Shown here: positions 1-7,773 of the stretch, in pieces | Layout: every line of letters begins with the position of its first letter | How positions within the stretch are numbered: the first letter of the stretch is position 1 | Source: an uncultured Bacilli bacterium | GTDB lineage: Bacteria > Bacillota_I > Bacilli_A > RF39 > UBA660 | Assembly: GCA_944329395.1 (NCBI GenBank) | Contig: CALVIF010000003.1 | Location: 1-37,070, forward strand | Direction of reading: 5' to 3' | DNA: 37,070 nt | Translations under genes and position numbers: made by a program | The notes under the pieces: generated by a model | The model's database searches: none | Seen by the model: the letters and a program-made list of their open reading frames with translations, nothing else | What the model was told of the DNA's origin: nothing

Positions 1-433
1 ATTTTTTTGATAATAGTTCTATTTTTTCATTTTGTTTTTTATTATCATTTATTAATAGTTCGAGTAGTGTAAGTATTATATTACTATGAATAGGACAATT
101 TTTTGAACAATTTTTTAGCATAGAGTAATAATCAATAAAAATTACTTCTGTTGTTTGATCACTAATAATATATATTTCATCTTCTGTATTTTGAAAAAAT
201 AAATTTGAGAATATATCGTTTGATTTTAATTCACGCATTATTGTTGTTGAACCATTTATATCTGTTTTTATAATATGCGCTTTTCCATATATGATAAAGC
301 CTATTTGTTTTTTTAAGGAATAATTGCTTATTATTATCTCTTTATTATTGAATGTTTTTTTATGTGTATTTACACAATTTGATAAATTTTTTTGGAAAAT
401 TAAAAGTTTATTTGTATCTATTGTATCAAGCAT
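1..433 (-). CDS. Crp/Fnr-family transcriptional regulator, N-terminal part (cut by window edge)
   Basis: Reading the minus strand from an ATG at 433-431 gives an open frame of 144 codons that runs off the left edge. An AGAGGTG ribosome site lies just upstream (about 437-443). The visible part looks like a cyclic-nucleotide-binding-type beta-roll: a short-strand segment with a Gly (GFIIYGKAHI, about residues 50-59), then an ELKSNDIFSN segment and a further strand run (EIYIISDQTTEVIFID). This resembles the effector domain of Crp/Fnr regulators. The DNA-binding helix-turn-helix would lie outside the window. A pair of cysteines (NCSKNCP, about residues 116-122) occurs where some Crp/Fnr proteins carry sensory cysteines, but too few are seen to claim an Fe-S cluster. 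It is divergent from the 837 gene and has a Crp-like inverted repeat in front of it. Confidence 0.7.
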   Translation of the reverse strand, partial: MLDTIDTNKLLIFQKNLSNCVNTHKKTFNNKEIIISNYSLKKQIGFIIYGKAHIIKTDINGSTTIMRELKSNDIFSNLFFQNTEDEIYIISDQTTEVIFIDYYSMLKNCSKNCPIHSNIILTLLELLINDNKKQNEKIELLSKK

Positions 434-836: not shown

Positions 837-1262
837 ATGGAAGAAAGATTAAGAGATGGTTACACTTTTTATTACTCTTTAATTAATGGTAATGATAGTG
901 GTGGTTATTTAAAAAGAACAGATTTTGGTTTATGTGGTTTGGAGTTATGTGGTAATGAGCAATTTTTACTAACTAATTTTCCTAATGTATTGCAAAGGTT
1001 AAATTCTGGAAATACTTTGCAAATGTATTTTGGAGATGTTTGTCATATGTTTACTATGATGATTGGGAAAGAAAACAGAGAAGGTCCATATGGGGAAGAG
1101 GCAAGTTTTTCTGATGTGTTTTTATTTTATGGAACTAGTCCAATTACTGTTTTGGAGGAGGCAGATCAAATTTTAGCAAAAAATACTGGGCAAAATAAGC
1201 AGCTAAAAAAAGCTTATCGTCTATATGGACAAGATAGATATCAATTTTATACTAGTAAATAG
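837..1262 (+). CDS. Hypothetical protein, 141 aa
   Basis: The start is the ATG at 837, preceded by AGGAG at 824-828; an upstream in-frame TTG at 819 has no ribosome site. The product is soluble, with no signal peptide or membrane segment. It has several aromatic residues, a Cys-rich segment (LCGLELCGN, about residues 33-41), and a Gln/Lys-rich C-terminus. I do not recognise the family. It lies alone between the Crp/Fnr gene and the anaerobic ribonucleotide reductase operon. The divergent Crp-like site at 475-490 may control it. Codon use matches the neighbours. Confidence 0.6.
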   Translation: MEERLRDGYTFYYSLINGNDSGGYLKRTDFGLCGLELCGNEQFLLTNFPNVLQRLNSGNTLQMYFGDVCHMFTMMIGKENREGPYGEEASFSDVFLFYGTSPITVLEEADQILAKNTGQNKQLKKAYRLYGQDRYQFYTSK

Positions 1263-1771: not shown

Positions 1772-4093
1772 ATGGCAGAAGTTAACGAATTATTTGATAA
1801 TTTAACTGTTATAAAAAGAAATGGTAAAAAAGTTGATTTTGACGGTTCTAAAATCGCTTTAGCTATAAAAAAGGGATTTGATAGCGTTGAAGTAGACGAC
1901 GATGAAATAGAAAAGGAAAGAAAATATACTACAAAAGATATTCAAAAAGTATATCAAGCAGTATTAAAGAGAATTGAAAAGGATTCTGAAGAAAAAAATA
2001 ATCGTTTTAAAATAGAAGAAATTCAGGATTATATTGAGAGTGAACTTTCTAATAAGGGATATGATGATGTTTATAAATCTTTTTCTGAGTATCGTGAAAG
2101 AAGAAATCAGTCTAGGGAATCTTTTTTTGGAGATAATAAGACACATAAATTTTTAAAGTCTTTAGAAAATTTGGGATTGAAATCTGCTAATGAGGAAGAT
2201 GCAAAAAGAGAAAATGCAAATATTGATGGTAATAGTCCGATGGGAACAATGTTGCAATATGGTGCAACTGTTTCTAAAGAATTTGCCAAAGCTTATTTAA
2301 TGAAAAAAGAATATGCTGAGGCACATGATAATGGTACTATTCATATTCACGATATGGATTTTCTTGCTATGGGGACTACTACTTGTTGTCAAATAGATTT
2401 ATCAAAATTGTTCAAAACTGGATTTGATACAGGGCATGGTTATATTAGACCACCTCAGGATATTTCTACTTATGGGTCTTTAGCTGCTATTGCAATTCAA
2501 GCTAATCAAAATGATCAACATGGTGGACAAGCTATACCAGCACTTGATTATTATATGGCTCCTGGTGTGTTGAAAACATTTAAAAGACAATTTAAGCAAA
2601 CAATTTATGATTTTTTGGATTTGGAAGGATTTATTCCAATTATTAATATTGATAGAATTATTAGAGAGATTGATAAAGTGGAATCCATTAATGTTGATGT
2701 TAGTGAATTTAGTGATTATCAAAGAGGTTCCAGTAGAATTCATGAAATTTTTGAAAAAAGTTATGAGAAAGCTCTTCAAAAAACAGATCGCGCAACGCAA
2801 CAAACTATGGAAGCTTTTATTCATAATTTAAATACAATGCATTCTAGAGCAGGAGCTCAGGTTCCATTTTCGTCTGTTAATTTTGGAACTGATTGTTCAC
2901 CAGAAGGAAGAATGGTAATTAAAAATTTCTTATTATCAGCTGAATGTGGACTTGGAAGAGGGGAAACACCAATTTTCCCAGTATCTATTTTTAAAGTAAA
3001 GGAAGGTATTAATTATAATCCAGAAGATTCAAATTATGATTTATTTAAGTTAGCATGTAGGGTATCTGCTAAAAGACTTTTTCCTAACTTTGCATTTATA
3101 GATGCTCCATTTAATTTAAAATATTATAAGGATGGCGATTACAATACAGAAATAGCTTATATGGGTTGTCGTACTAGAGTTGTTGGTGATGTTACTTCTC
3201 CTGATAATGAAGTTGTAACTGGTCGTGGTAATTTATCATTTACAACTATTAATTTACCAAGATTGGGTATTAAATATGGTATTAGTCTAAAAGAGCGTGA
3301 GAAGGCTGATATGGAAGGTTTTTATCGTGAGCTTGGTGAAATTATGGATATGGTTCGTGATCAATTACTTGAACGTTTTGAAGTTCAATGTTCTAAGCAT
3401 TGTTATAATTTTCCTTTCTTATTAGGTCAAGGAATTTGGACTAATGGGGAAAAATTAAAACCAGCTGATCGATTACGTAAAGTTTGGAAACATGGCACTT
3501 TATCAACTGGATTTATTGGTCTTGCTGAGTGTTTGAAGGCTTTAACGGGAAAGCATCATGGTGAAAGTGAAGAAAGTCAAAAATTAGGATTAGAAATTGT
3601 TAAGTTTATGCGTGAAAAGTGTGAAGAAAATTCTAAAAAATATAATTTGAATTTTACTTGTTTGGCTACGCCAGCTGAAGGATTATCTGGTAGATTTACT
3701 AGAATTGATAGAGCTATATATGGAAAGATAAAGGGAGTTACAGATAGAGAATATTATACAAATTCATTCCATATACCTGTTTATTATAATATTAGTATTA
3801 CTGATAAGATTGAACATGAGGCACCATATCATGAACTTACTAACGGTGGACATATTTCTTATATTGAACTTGATGGTGATACTGCATCTAATGTTGATGC
3901 GTTTGAGAAGGTTATTAGAATTATGAAAGAAGCTGGTATAGGTTATGGAGCAATAAATCATCCAGTTGATCGTGATCCTGTTTGTGGTTATGTAGGTGTT
4001 ATAAATGATGTTTGTCCAAAATGTGGTCGACGTGAATTTGAAGGTGTTCCACTTGAAAAAATAACTGCTATAGATAATCAATGTTGTGAATAA
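1772..4093 (+). CDS. nrdD: Anaerobic (class III) ribonucleoside-triphosphate reductase, catalytic body lacking the glycyl-radical tail
   Basis: Makes dNTPs from NTPs without oxygen. The chosen start is the ATG at 1772 with AGGAGGT at 1759-1765; an upstream in-frame GTG at 1748 is less likely. The product has 773 residues. An ATP-cone lies at about residues 5-95 (VIKRNGKKVDFDGSKI), then the barrel with MGTTTCCQIDL, HSRAGAQVPFSSVNFGTD and a zinc-site-like end (DPVCGY...CPKCGRREFEG). In related single-chain enzymes the CPKCGR segment is followed by the glycyl-radical motif R-x-T/V-x-G-Y-L. Here the chain stops at QCCE. The radical motif is on the next gene, in another frame with its own ribosome site. 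The enzyme therefore appears to need two polypeptides. Confidence 0.93.
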   Translation: MAEVNELFDNLTVIKRNGKKVDFDGSKIALAIKKGFDSVEVDDDEIEKERKYTTKDIQKVYQAVLKRIEKDSEEKNNRFKIEEIQDYIESELSNKGYDDVYKSFSEYRERRNQSRESFFGDNKTHKFLKSLENLGLKSANEEDAKRENANIDGNSPMGTMLQYGATVSKEFAKAYLMKKEYAEAHDNGTIHIHDMDFLAMGTTTCCQIDLSKLFKTGFDTGHGYIRPPQDISTYGSLAAIAIQANQNDQHGGQAIPALDYYMAPGVLKTFKRQFKQTIYDFLDLEGFIPIINIDRIIREIDKVESINVDVSEFSDYQRGSSRIHEIFEKSYEKALQKTDRATQQTMEAFIHNLNTMHSRAGAQVPFSSVNFGTDCSPEGRMVIKNFLLSAECGLGRGETPIFPVSIFKVKEGINYNPEDSNYDLFKLACRVSAKRLFPNFAFIDAPFNLKYYKDGDYNTEIAYMGCRTRVVGDVTSPDNEVVTGRGNLSFTTINLPRLGIKYGISLKEREKADMEGFYRELGEIMDMVRDQLLERFEVQCSKHCYNFPFLLGQGIWTNGEKLKPADRLRKVWKHGTLSTGFIGLAECLKALTGKHHGESEESQKLGLEIVKFMREKCEENSKKYNLNFTCLATPAEGLSGRFTRIDRAIYGKIKGVTDREYYTNSFHIPVYYNISITDKIEHEAPYHELTNGGHISYIELDGDTASNVDAFEKVIRIMKEAGIGYGAINHPVDRDPVCGYVGVINDVCPKCGRREFEGVPLEKITAIDNQCCE

Positions 4094-4119
4094 ATAATAA
4101 AAAAGAAGGAGAGATAATT

Positions 4120-4281
4120 ATGGAAAAAATAGTTGGAGAAGGACAAAAATTTGAAAGAATTAGAAGAGTTACAGGATATTTGGCGGGTGATGTTTCTAGA
4201 TTCAATAATGGTAAACGTGCTGAGGAAAGAGATCGTGTAAAACATAGTGGTGTTAATGATATTGTAAAAGAAGGTAAGTAA
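4120..4281 (+). CDS. Stand-alone glycyl-radical domain of class III ribonucleotide reductase, 53 aa
   Basis: An ORF of 53 codons has its own AAGGAGAG site at 4106-4113 and ATG at 4120. It lies 26 bp after nrdD and ends 1 bp before nrdG. It contains FERIRRVTGYLAGD (residues 11-24), the NrdD glycyl-radical motif with the radical Gly at residue 19. A conserved-looking tail follows (FNNGKRAEERDRVKH, residues 28-42). In single-chain NrdD proteins this block is the C-terminus. Inference: this peptide docks into the NrdD body and carries the radical made by NrdG. Its frame differs from nrdD and its start signals are good, so a single sequencing error does not explain it easily. An alternative role is a spare part that repairs oxygen-damaged NrdD, by analogy with YfiD and pyruvate formate-lyase. 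Confidence 0.85.
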   Translation: MEKIVGEGQKFERIRRVTGYLAGDVSRFNNGKRAEERDRVKHSGVNDIVKEGK

Positions 4282-4282
4282 T

Positions 4283-4834
4283 ATGAAAATTAGGTTAGCT
4301 GCTTGTTTGCAGCCTGATTCTATTGTAGATGGTGAGGGAATTAGAACTGTAATTTGGACGCAAGGATGTTCTCATCATTGCCCTGGATGTCATAATGCTA
4401 GTACATGGGATTTTGATGGTGGTGCTTTGGTTGACGTTGATGATGTCATCACTGAATTAAGGGGTATAAAAAATCAGGATGGTATTACTCTTTCTGGTGG
4501 TGATCCTATTTTTCAGGCTGATGCTTGCTATGAAATTTGTAAAGCTGCTCATGAAATGGGACTTAATGTATGGTGTTATACTGGTTTTAAATATGAGCAA
4601 ATATTATTTAATCCGAAAGCTAGGCGTTTACTTGAGCAAATTGACGTTTTAGTTGATGGTAGATTTGTAGAAGAAGAAAAAAGTTTTGATATTTATTTCA
4701 GAGGTTCTAGAAATCAAAGAATTATTGATGTTCCAAAAAGTTTAGAAAAAGAGCAGGTTGTTCTTATTGATAAGTATATGGAAGATAAAAGTTATGAGAT
4801 TAATTATAAAAAACCACAATATATGTTTATTTAA
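4283..4834 (+). CDS. nrdG: Anaerobic ribonucleotide reductase activating enzyme (radical SAM)
   Basis: Generates the glycyl radical on NrdD by reductive cleavage of S-adenosylmethionine. The radical-SAM motif C-x3-C-x2-C is at about residues 29-36 (TQGCSHHCPGCHNAS). SAM-binding LSGGDPI follows near residue 72, and VDGRF near 127. At 183 residues it has the usual NrdG length. It starts 1 bp after the 53-residue glycyl-radical gene, so the two are probably translationally coupled. Its substrate is then likely the small protein held by NrdD. A terminator overlaps its stop codon. Confidence 0.95.
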   Translation: MKIRLAACLQPDSIVDGEGIRTVIWTQGCSHHCPGCHNASTWDFDGGALVDVDDVITELRGIKNQDGITLSGGDPIFQADACYEICKAAHEMGLNVWCYTGFKYEQILFNPKARRLLEQIDVLVDGRFVEEEKSFDIYFRGSRNQRIIDVPKSLEKEQVVLIDKYMEDKSYEINYKKPQYMFI

Positions 4835-4857: not shown

Positions 4858-4948
4858 ATTTTTGTCGATTTAAAATTTTGATATGTTTTGTCGTATTGGT
4901 AGAAATATTTTTTTATTTTCTTTATATTTTAATAGAGAGGTGATGTTC

Positions 4949-5269
4949 ATGTTGGATATAAATATTGAGGTTGTGAGGGGTATTATTTTTATTAGATTGG
5001 AAGGTGATTTAACTAGCGGGACATTTAATAATTTAAATTTAGAAATTGATAATTTACTTTACAATTTAGGAATGCAATTTTATGTAATTATTTTTGCTGA
5101 TCTTTTTACTATTGACAATAATGTTTTTGACATGATTCAGAATAAATTATATGAAATTTTTTTAAGTTGTGGTGATGTAGTTATGTGTGGAGTAAAAAAA
5201 ATTTTTAAAGATAAAAGAATAATTTATATTAATAGTGAAGATGAGGCATTTAGATATTTTAGTATTTGA
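4949..5269 (+). CDS. spoIIAA: STAS-domain protein, SpoIIAA-like (anti-anti-sigma), phosphoserine replaced
   Basis: A 106-residue STAS protein lies directly upstream of a sigma-F-like gene, where spoIIAA sits in Bacillus. The start is the ATG at 4949 with GAGAGGTG before it; ATG 4943 is too close to the site. The fold matches SpoIIAA: strand IRLEGDL (15-21), helix, strand YVIIFADL (45-52). The loop that in SpoIIAA carries the phosphorylated Ser (DSSG) is D56-N57-N58-V59 here. Both serines and the Gly are lost, so regulation by SpoIIAB phosphorylation is not possible at this site. No spoIIAB gene lies between it and the sigma gene; the gap is 10 bp. It may be a non-phosphorylatable, constitutively active form, or have a new role. 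Confidence 0.7.
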   Translation: MLDINIEVVRGIIFIRLEGDLTSGTFNNLNLEIDNLLYNLGMQFYVIIFADLFTIDNNVFDMIQNKLYEIFLSCGDVVMCGVKKIFKDKRIIYINSEDEAFRYFSI

Positions 5270-5279
5270 AAGGATGAAA

Positions 5280-5918
5280 ATGGATGATTTACTTGAATAT
5301 GAAGGATTAGTTTATGGAATTATTAATAGATATAGTTCTTATTTTGATTTGGATGATTTGTATCAAGTAGGAATGCTGGGATTGATTGATGCATATAAAC
5401 ATTATAATTGTAATTTAAATACTAAGTTTTCAACTTATGCATATTATTATATTTTAGGAGAAGTAAAGAAATATGTTAGAGAAAGTAATTTGGTTAAAGT
5501 TGGTGGTGAATTAGTTAAGGTTAATCAAGCTGTTGAACGTGCTAAAGAAAAAATGAGTCAAACGCTAGGAAGAGAGCCTACTTTAATTGAGTTATCCACA
5601 TTTTTGGAAATTGATGCGGAAAAAATTGAAGAAGCTCGTATTGCAGCTTTAGATATTAGAAGTTTAGATTATACTAGCGAAGATGAATCTAATGATTTAT
5701 ATAATTCTATTATTTCGACCGATAATGGAATGAAATGTGAAATATTGGATTTAAAAATGGCTTTAGAAGGTTTAAACTCTGATGAAAAAAATTTAATTAT
5801 TTCAAGATATTTTAATGACTTAACACAATCTGAAACAAGTAAGGAATTGGGAATTAGTCAAGTTCAGGTATCAAGAAAAGAAGGTAAAATTTTAGAAAAA
5901 TTAAAAAGTGTACTTTAA
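5280..5918 (+). CDS. sigF: RNA polymerase sporulation sigma factor, sigma-F/G type
   Basis: A 212-residue sigma-70 family protein of the SigF/SigG/SigB group. Start ATG 5280 has AAAGGA six bases upstream. Region 2 reads DLYQVGMLGLIDAYKHY...FSTYAYYYILGEVKKYVRE (about residues 21-66), region 3 KMSQTLGREPTLIELS, and region 4 QSETSKELGISQVQVSR, identical over LGISQVQVSR to my recollection of Bacillus SigF. The order STAS gene - sigma - spoVA matches Bacillus spoIIA-spoVA, which favours sigma-F over sigma-G. The anti-sigma kinase gene spoIIAB is absent from the locus. The product would direct forespore-specific transcription, including possibly the spoVA genes behind it. Confidence 0.85.
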   Translation: MDDLLEYEGLVYGIINRYSSYFDLDDLYQVGMLGLIDAYKHYNCNLNTKFSTYAYYYILGEVKKYVRESNLVKVGGELVKVNQAVERAKEKMSQTLGREPTLIELSTFLEIDAEKIEEARIAALDIRSLDYTSEDESNDLYNSIISTDNGMKCEILDLKMALEGLNSDEKNLIISRYFNDLTQSETSKELGISQVQVSRKEGKILEKLKSVL

Positions 5919-5944
5919 AACTTAAGAATTTTCTTAAGTTTTTT
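5917..5944 (+). terminator. Terminator after sigF
   Basis: AAAACTTAAG arms (5917-5926 and 5933-5942) form a near-perfect palindrome that ends in T's and overlaps the sigF stop. It separates sigF from spoVAC. Confidence 0.7.
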
Positions 5945-5974
5945 GTATGAAATTAAAATATTTAGTTGATAATA
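5944..5974 (+). promoter_or_regulatory. Forespore (sigma-G/F-like) promoter candidate for spoVA
   Basis: TGTATG (5944-5949) fits the sigma-G -35 pattern TGnATR. GATAATA (5968-5974), 18 bp later, matches the CATACTA -10 at five of seven positions. It lies between the sigF terminator and spoVAC, where Bacillus has a sigma-G promoter for spoVA. The match is moderate in so AT-rich a genome. Confidence 0.4.
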
Positions 5975-5990
5975 TTAGTGGTGAATAGAT

Positions 5991-6434
5991 ATGGAAGATA
6001 AATTATATAAAAAAATTGCTGATTCTCATAAGCCTAAGGAAACAAAGTTGAAGAACTTAATTATTGCTTTTGTAGTTGGTGGTTTAATAGGTTGCTTTGG
6101 GGAAATAATTATTGAAATAATGTGTTCTTTTTTTCATAAATCAAGGGCTCAAGCTCAGGTGTTTATGAGTGTTTTCTTTATTTTTATTGCTAGTTTATTA
6201 ACATCTTTAGGTTTTTTTGATAAATTGGTTAATAAATGCAAATGTGGATTATTAATACCAATTACTGGATTTGCACATTCAATGACTAGTGCTGCATTAG
6301 ATTATAGAAAAGAAGGGCTAATATATGGTATTGGATCTAATATTTTTAAACTTGCTGGTTCTGTTATTTTGTATGGGGTTGTTTCTACTTGGCTTTTTGG
6401 AATGATAAGATATTTTATTGGAGGTGTTTTATGA
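5991..6434 (+). CDS. spoVAC: Stage V sporulation protein AC (spore DPA channel membrane subunit)
   Basis: A 147-residue integral membrane protein that moves dipicolinic acid across the inner spore membrane. It has four hydrophobic segments (about 22-46, 58-77, 86-106, 118-145) and the family motifs GFAHSMTSAA and EGLIYGIGSNIFKLAG. Length matches Bacillus SpoVAC (about 150). The start ATG 5991 has GGTGA upstream. The stop overlaps the spoVAD start (ATGA), so translation is coupled. No spoVAA or spoVAB lies in front. Confidence 0.93.
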   Translation: MEDKLYKKIADSHKPKETKLKNLIIAFVVGGLIGCFGEIIIEIMCSFFHKSRAQAQVFMSVFFIFIASLLTSLGFFDKLVNKCKCGLLIPITGFAHSMTSAALDYRKEGLIYGIGSNIFKLAGSVILYGVVSTWLFGMIRYFIGGVL

Positions 6435-7423
6435 CATTTAAATATAAAAATGTTTATGTTGAGGATACAGTTACTTTTGCAGGTCCTTATGAAAAGAAGG
6501 GCCCTTTAAAAAAGTATTTTGATAAAACTTTTAATGATTTATATTTTGGGGCAGATTCTTTTGAAAAAGCAGAGATTAAAGCAATTAGAGATAATCTAAA
6601 TTTAATGTTTAAAAAACTTGGTAAAAAAAAAGATGATATTGATTTAATTATTGGGAGTGATTTATTAAATCAAATTTCTGCTTCTACTTATGGATGTGAA
6701 GGTTATGGAAATGGATTTATTGGAATTTATGGAGCATGTAGTAGTAGTGTTTTAGGAATGATAATTGCTAGTAATTTTATTGAGTATAATCAAATTTCTA
6801 ATGCTATATGTTTAGTTTCTTCGCATAATATGACAAGTGAGAAACAGTTTAGAAATCCTACTGAATATGGAGCACCTAAACCTAGAAGTGCAACTTTTAC
6901 TGCAACAGGAGCTGCATCTATTTGTTTGTCTTCGCAAAAAACAGATGTGCGTGTTGAATGTTCTACTTTGGGAAGAATAATTGATTATGGTGAAAATAAT
7001 CCTAATGATATGGGAAGAGTTATGGCTCCAGCTGCAATTGATACTTTGCGTAAACATTTTGAAGAAACAGGAAGAACGCCTGATTATTATGATTTGATTT
7101 TAACAGGTGATTTAGGAGAATATGGTAAGGAAATTGTTAAAGATTATATGTCCATAAAATATAATTATGATTTGAGTAAAAATTATAATGATTGTGGTGT
7201 TATGTTATATGATTTAACTAAGCAGAAAGAAGTTTTAGCTGGTGGTTCCGGGCCAGTATGTAGTGCACTTGTTAATTATGGTTATATTTATGATCAGTTA
7301 AAAAAGAAGAAGTTAAAAAGAGTTTTATTAGTAGCTACAGGTGCTTTATTTTGTCCACTTCTTGTTTATCAAAAAGAAAATATTAATTCTATTGCTCATG
7401 CAATTAGTTTGGAGGCGATTTAA
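6431..7423 (+). CDS. spoVAD: Stage V sporulation protein AD (DPA-binding, thiolase fold)
   Basis: A 330-residue soluble protein of the SpoVAD family, which has a thiolase/ketoacyl-synthase III fold without catalytic function and binds dipicolinic acid. Family signatures: CEGYGNGFIGIYGACSSSVLG (about residues 81-101), SSHNMTSEKQFRNPTEYGAPKP, and LTGDLGEYGKEI. Start ATG 6431 has GGAGGTG at 6420-6426 and overlaps spoVAC by 4 bp. It ends overlapping spoVAE by 1 bp. Confidence 0.95.
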   Translation: MTFKYKNVYVEDTVTFAGPYEKKGPLKKYFDKTFNDLYFGADSFEKAEIKAIRDNLNLMFKKLGKKKDDIDLIIGSDLLNQISASTYGCEGYGNGFIGIYGACSSSVLGMIIASNFIEYNQISNAICLVSSHNMTSEKQFRNPTEYGAPKPRSATFTATGAASICLSSQKTDVRVECSTLGRIIDYGENNPNDMGRVMAPAAIDTLRKHFEETGRTPDYYDLILTGDLGEYGKEIVKDYMSIKYNYDLSKNYNDCGVMLYDLTKQKEVLAGGSGPVCSALVNYGYIYDQLKKKKLKRVLLVATGALFCPLLVYQKENINSIAHAISLEAI

Positions 7424-7773
7424 TGTTATTTATTAATTCATTTTTATTTTGTGGGACAATTTGTTTAATTGCTCAAATTATTTTGGATAATACTAAATTA
7501 ACTCCGGGCCATATAACAAGTTTATTTGTGGTTATAGGGGCTTTTTTAGATAGTTTTAGTTTATATGATTTAATTATTAAATATGTTGGAGGTGGAGCTC
7601 TTGTACCAATAACAAGTTTTGGTCATTCTTTAGTACATGGTGCATTAGCTAAAACTAATGGTTATGGGTTAATGGGAATATTTATGGGAATGTTTGATTT
7701 AACTGCTTCTGGAATAACAGCAGCAATAATATTTTCTTTTATATTTTCTTTAATTTTTAAGCCTAAAAATTAA
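7423..7773 (+). CDS. spoVAE: Stage V sporulation protein AE (SpoVAEb-type channel subunit)
   Basis: A 116-residue membrane protein with about three hydrophobic helices and the motifs GGGALVPITSFGHSLVHGAL (about 53-72) and GLMGIFMGMFDLTASGI, which parallel those of SpoVAC as expected within the family. Its start overlaps the spoVAD stop (TAATG), with GGAGG upstream. It is the last gene of the operon and is followed by a shared terminator. Confidence 0.92.
   Translation: MLFINSFLFCGTICLIAQIILDNTKLTPGHITSLFVVIGAFLDSFSLYDLIIKYVGGGALVPITSFGHSLVHGALAKTNGYGLMGIFMGMFDLTASGITAAIIFSFIFSLIFKPKN

Follow-up and report, generated by a model that had tools for sequence, protein, structure and literature searches.

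How can a class III ribonucleotide reductase work when its catalytic protein, NrdD, carries no glycine for the radical? The question is raised by a stretch of 37,070 nucleotides from an uncultured Bacilli bacterium (hereafter the window), in which nrdD stops short of the glycyl-radical loop and the loop is encoded by a small gene of its own. NrdD is the sole de novo route to DNA precursors found in the window's genome, and oxygen destroys its glycyl radical. Overall, we believe that the locus encodes a class III reductase in two pieces, of which the one with the radical is provided in trans and is probably replaced after oxygen damage, a reading to which we assign a probability of about 0.75.

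The split locus and its reality

The nrdD gene (1772..4093, plus strand) starts with the ATG at 1772 and encodes an N-terminal ATP-cone, the catalytic barrel and a zinc site without a glycyl-radical block (NCBIfam PRK07111, E 3e-302; Pfam ATP-cone, and NRDD positions 1-533 of 562). Aligned to the Prevotella copri structure 8p23, its Cys466 (MGCR, codon 3167..3169) is the counterpart of Cys416, the radical cysteine of that enzyme (PMC11226230), and the zinc-site cysteines C738, C748 and C751 lie in CGY...CPKCGR (3983..4024). An earlier note, made from the letters of the window alone, had NrdD ending after CPKCGR and RRVTGYL lying on a separate 53-codon gene, in another frame and with its own ribosome site, with nrdG 1 bp further on; all of this is borne out. 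NrdD stops 20-odd residues past CPKCGR, at the TAA of 4091-4093, so that the protein ends in ...CPKCGRREFEGVPLEKITAIDNQCCE. A gap of 26 nt follows, which holds only the ribosome site, the Shine-Dalgarno sequence AAGGAG (4106..4111) placed 8 nt before the ATG; no mobile element or remnant of one (intron, intein or homing endonuclease) is present in these 26 nt. The small gene (4120..4281, plus strand) has its own ATG and a frame different from that of nrdD, and its 53-residue product, MEKIVGEGQKFERIRRVTGYLAGDVSRFNNGKRAEERDRVKHSGVNDIVKEGK, matches NRDD positions 531-562 (E 6e-8) and is conserved throughout the family; the codon of its predicted radical glycine, Gly19 of RRVTGYL, is at 4174..4176. 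The nrdG gene for the radical-SAM activase (4283..4834, plus strand; TIGR02491, E 4e-46, above cut-off) begins 1 bp past the stop codon of the small gene.

Judged as a class III enzyme, NrdD has the NRDD barrel, the ATP-cone, the radical cysteine and an NrdG encoded nearby, but it fails to carry the radical loop at its own C-terminus, the remainder being found on the next gene. Since the NRDD model (length 562) is divided over both reading frames, the two proteins together make up one NrdD. The tail of the stub, RREFEGVPLEKITAIDNQCCE (4025..4093, plus strand), has a pair of cysteines at its end that most stubs share: a terminal CC, CxC or CxxC is present in 105 of 147 stub-type NrdDs (DNQCCE in the window), in Bacilli and also in Succinivibrionaceae (CICRG). 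It is possible that these pairs are zinc ligands or a redox pair.

The mechanism we propose is as follows. The stub would bind nucleotides and provide the active-site cysteine, having no glycine for the radical, and the 53-residue protein would give that glycine in trans, its loop entering the barrel where the C-terminus of an ordinary NrdD does. NrdG would generate the radical on the small protein, and a piece cut by oxygen might then be discarded and cheaply replaced by a fresh separate domain. Supply of the radical glycine in trans is an inference, and a strongly supported one that we hold with high confidence. Sequence alone establishes that the gene is split, that the split is conserved, that NrdD lacks the domain and that extra copies exist, with the neighbours they have; that the loop docks, that NrdG activates the small protein and that the piece is replaced are inferences only, without biochemistry, proteomics or reads, and most relatives are metagenome-assembled. 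As for docking, an AlphaFold model was made for a relative (L038) whose small gene is naturally in frame, reading through the stop. The model has a pLDDT of 77.7 overall and under 50 across the radical loop; residues 152-805 superpose on residues 26-580 of phage T4 NrdD (rmsd 2.3 over 519 residues), and the radical Gly804, the counterpart of Gly19, falls on T4 Gly580. The loop is of low confidence and the read-through by itself keeps it close to the barrel, so that the superposition agrees with docking in the usual place but cannot test it.

Could the split simply be an error of assembly or sequencing, or an nrdD in decay? The source genome is indeed a metagenome-type assembly (1.2 Mb, 91% complete) in 115 contigs. 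Yet the same layout is common to hundreds of independent assemblies across phyla, and the low pN/pS of the small gene (0.15-0.44 against 21 relatives), from which we deduce that the gene is under purifying selection, counts against error and decay alike. Decay is also contradicted by the lack of any other reductase found in the window's genome, where no class I or II enzyme (PF02867) was matched at 91% completeness. The earlier note had named a second full-length nrdD and an assembly error as the observations that would sink the split: the former did not turn up in this 91%-complete genome, which has one NrdD and one such radical domain, and the latter is contradicted by the many independent assemblies. 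We regard error or decay as having a negligible chance of being correct.

The adjacency of nrdD and the small gene would also permit a ribosomal frameshift, a hop or stop read-through that joins both frames in translation and yields a normal fused NrdD. Against this, every one of 142 split loci has a separate ATG for the small gene, nearly all with a motif resembling a ribosome site; the small gene is in frame with NrdD at 48 of them, the third expected by chance; and the gap between the two varies from -8 to 308 nt. With a random frame and a start of its own everywhere, there is no conserved read-through, frameshift or hop, and we consider recoding very improbable. Assembly error, pseudogene and recoding were accordingly rejected on family-wide conservation, pN/pS and random frame.

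The flanks of the locus deserve separate mention. In two relatives (G002 and G069; loci L307 and L308), a second, fused class III operon lies beside a Crp-type gene and consists of an nrdD ending in RMNGYLSYSRVHG..., nrdG, an ORF of unknown function and a dUTPase gene. The window retains only a Crp/Fnr-like regulator (1..433, minus strand), recognized by its likeness to the Crp-type gene of these relatives, and the unknown ORF (837..1262, plus strand); it would seem that the window has lost the second operon. On the other side, positions 4883-7773 of the window encode a STAS-domain protein (a weak match), an overlapping SigF-like sigma factor and then spoVAC, spoVAD and spoVAE. The genome that carries these genes measures 1.2 Mb, and the STAS-domain and SigF-like genes have no spoIIAB between them.

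Distribution and history of the split

The two-piece class III reductase is real and widespread, a variant of the known enzyme that is found in many gut bacteria. A genome of the same genus has the identical split layout (86% identity), and within the family the small protein was matched in 193 of 386 genomes; among the matches listed, the open frame measures about 53-83 residues in all but 10, which are fused. In a draw of 145 genomes compared by eye, 77 of the 78 that carry the window's NrdD lineage also have the radical domain, and the lone exception (G096) has an incomplete NrdD match. Relatives with the split include Candidatus Faecimonas and Candidatus Onthousia; outside the Bacilli it occurs in Oscillospiraceae, Butyricicoccaceae (Butyricicoccus), Succinivibrionaceae, Desulfovibrionaceae and the genus Mailhella. 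Most other Bacilli families have a fused NrdD of 750-800 residues.

The earlier note had asked whether split and fused forms define clades. The two forms are sorted on the NrdD tree without falling into two clades, and the split needs several separate origins. A tree that included one NrdD wrongly classed as split (L256) has 10 changes of the split/fused label, and the cleaned set from which it was left out has 8. A single clade of all cellular split NrdDs, defined after the tree had been seen, is rejected by the AU test (p-AU about 1e-81); thus the split arose, or moved, several times. Within the window's own family a single clade is not rejected (p-AU 0.153).

The pieces themselves carry traces of how the break came about. 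The residues that connect the zinc site to RIRR are present, each time in a version of their own, in both the stub (EFEGVPLEKI) and the small protein (GEGQKFERI). A single clean cut does not account for this; the break looks like a duplication or capture followed by loss, although this is inference. One route would be capture, wherein a stand-alone radical domain, from a phage or a chromosomal spare, was gained first and NrdD's own was lost afterwards. The overlap of the two pieces fits such a route, as do what look like its successive steps, namely genomes with a full-length NrdD and a spare (G480, G521) and then one with a truncated NrdD and an unlinked spare. In the latter, a single-contig genome (G408), an NrdD of this type is truncated right at the motif (ERIPRINLESE) and a stand-alone radical domain lies 1.4 Mb away; the genome also has a second NrdD, of the E. 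coli type. A phage (L159) that has a stub NrdD and a radical protein with an additional N-terminal domain (N-domain), nested among phages with fused NrdD, points the same way. At the same time, tandem duplication would leave the same overlap, and the 40 residues of the domain are too few to build a tree that can be relied on. Capture remains a tentative idea, one that is compatible with a two-piece enzyme supplied in trans.

Two observations on these relatives are recorded here in their own right. Just beyond the nrdG of the truncated NrdD in G408 (L310) lies a reverse-transcriptase gene (PF00078). In a group of small single-contig genomes of family f4 (G455, G493, G522, G557 and others), the NrdD radical motifs contain one in-frame TGA, which is probably read as Trp.

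Lone radical domains in phages and oxygen-defence clusters

Stand-alone NrdD-type radical domains without an NrdD of their own are a new observation here. They occur in prophages (L085 in G643, L189 in G381, L190 in G252, L309 in G011 and L084 in G642), next to the terminase small subunit where the neighbour was checked (L085, L189 and L309), or within a cluster of tail genes (L084). Three of the hosts (G643, G381 and G252) each have one NrdD, which is split, and prophage and host radical cores are identical at 31 of 32 positions in G643 and 30 of 32 in G381. Among 62 parsed IMG/VR contigs, 45 encode the radical domain as a short ORF and 17 as part of a fused NrdD; for the short-ORF phage contigs in one parsed set, an NrdD lies within the flanks only in L122, L158 and L159, a count that covers only about 6 kb on each side and does not exclude a more distant NrdD. 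In two large IMG/VR phage contigs (L176 and L178, near 5329-6001), the reading frame of NrdD breaks off within RITG, and the remainder of the radical motif comes about 700 bp later, probably the mark of an intron at the radical site.

Lone domains are not confined to phages, and they can be numerous. A single domain-less NrdD is accompanied by four radical domains in Mailhella (G642 and G652), by three in G645 and by two in G649. A chromosomal form of about 90 residues, in which a beta-alpha-beta-beta N-domain precedes the radical block, is found in Bacilli that have a full-length NrdD (such as G480, G521, G424 and G454); this N-domain has no Pfam match of its own. Many spares, from phages and chromosomes alike, have an unannotated domain of the same fold, about 50 residues long, ahead of the radical block (for example L150, 5839-6096, and L186, 3113-3382), and the phage protein of L150, comprising N-domain and radical domain, is predicted to fold only moderately well (pLDDT 70.7).

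The neighbours of the lone copies suggest a tie to oxygen. In all five genomes of one Bacilli genus (g206), a superoxide reductase gene lies directly upstream of the lone domain, here the form of about 90 residues, and four of the five also have a full-length-type NrdD; L186 has a divergent Crp-type regulator at this locus, and the layout of L187 and L188 points to one there too. The cluster in Mailhella (G642 and G652) reads desulfoferrodoxin, double rubredoxin, radical domain, rubredoxin and flavodiiron protein; cytochrome bd subunit I follows downstream, and the order was verified with Pfam in G642. This linkage to superoxide reductase is known from only two lineages, one genus each, and the window's own copy, co-encoded with nrdD and nrdG, sits in an operon that says nothing special about repair.

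What, then, is the separate domain for? In class III reductases the glycyl radical is the point at which oxygen cuts the chain (PMC3019208, PMC2795772). Since the cut in glycyl-radical proteins falls at the glycine, a separate piece could be cheaply replaced and the loss limited to a 53-residue peptide. The lone copies in prophages and oxygen-defence clusters fit a supply of fresh domains, and together they suggest that the small radical protein is a replaceable part. The earlier note had proposed just such a part, and its proposal gains indirect support from the lone prophage copies, the several copies per NrdD and the superoxide-reductase neighbours, though it is not shown biochemically. We cannot rule out plain gene fission, which would make the small protein an obligatory subunit, bound once and for good, without any part in replacement or repair. 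The window's copy shares its operon with nrdD and nrdG, and the single origin that remains admissible within the family is what vertical inheritance of a fission would predict. Nonetheless, a mere fission product would not be expected to occur several times for one NrdD, alone in prophages or beside superoxide reductase, and we consider plain fission unlikely. Replacement after oxygen damage, inferred and without biochemistry behind it, is the reading to which we lean, if only slightly. A broader proposal, on which we are evenly divided, is that these proteins form a family of NrdD-type autonomous glycyl-radical cofactors, encoded in nrdD operons, in superoxide-reductase, rubredoxin and flavodiiron operons and in phages, which put a fresh domain in place in an NrdD that oxygen has cut or that lacks one, and thereby allow anaerobes and the phages infecting them to resume DNA precursor synthesis.

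If replacement holds true, a detachable radical domain would explain the recovery of strict anaerobes and would give phages a reason to carry a 50-residue gene. The replaceable-part idea can be put to a direct test thanks to the wider family of lone NrdD radical domains, and two polypeptides that can be mixed offer a natural system for the study of radical transfer between barrel and loop.

Relation to known reductases and spare parts

The closest enzymes are the NrdDs of P. copri (8P23) and phage T4 (1H78), which share with the window the barrel, ATP-cone, radical cysteine, zinc motif, RRxTGYL loop and NrdG partner. Their radical loop forms the C-terminal end of the one NrdD chain (PMC11226230), whereas in the window it is a separate protein, the break falling inside the glycyl-radical domain, between the zinc site and the loop. 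Reductases made from two genes are known as well: class II NrdJa/NrdJb, Aeh1 nrdA-a/nrdA-b and the phage nrdD genes split by introns or inteins. Those splits lie elsewhere in the protein or stem from introns, inteins or homing endonucleases, and none described in these sources separates the radical-carrying piece (PMC3653736, PMC9669993). We found no report of a split or autonomous NrdD radical domain among the open-licence papers searched or in RNRdb.

Another close parallel is with the spare parts of pyruvate formate-lyase, GrcA/YfiD and T4 Y06I, which are likewise small autonomous glycyl-radical domains, some of them phage-encoded, with a link to oxygen, and which are proposed to replace the cut C-terminus of that enzyme. 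The small protein of the window is of the NrdD type and not of the Gly_radical/pyruvate formate-lyase type of GrcA/YfiD: it has no match to Gly_radical (PF01228), and only NRDD/NrdD models match it. Spare parts have been validated only for pyruvate formate-lyase, their extension to other glycyl-radical enzymes being speculation (PMC8683613); replacement in NrdD, if true, would carry the spare-part principle from pyruvate formate-lyase to an enzyme of DNA synthesis, as that paper left open. Another difference is that GrcA/YfiD stands beside an intact full-length enzyme, whereas the main enzyme of the window has no such domain of its own. The Bacilli relatives that combine a fused NrdD with a spare, however, do show the GrcA/YfiD-like arrangement.
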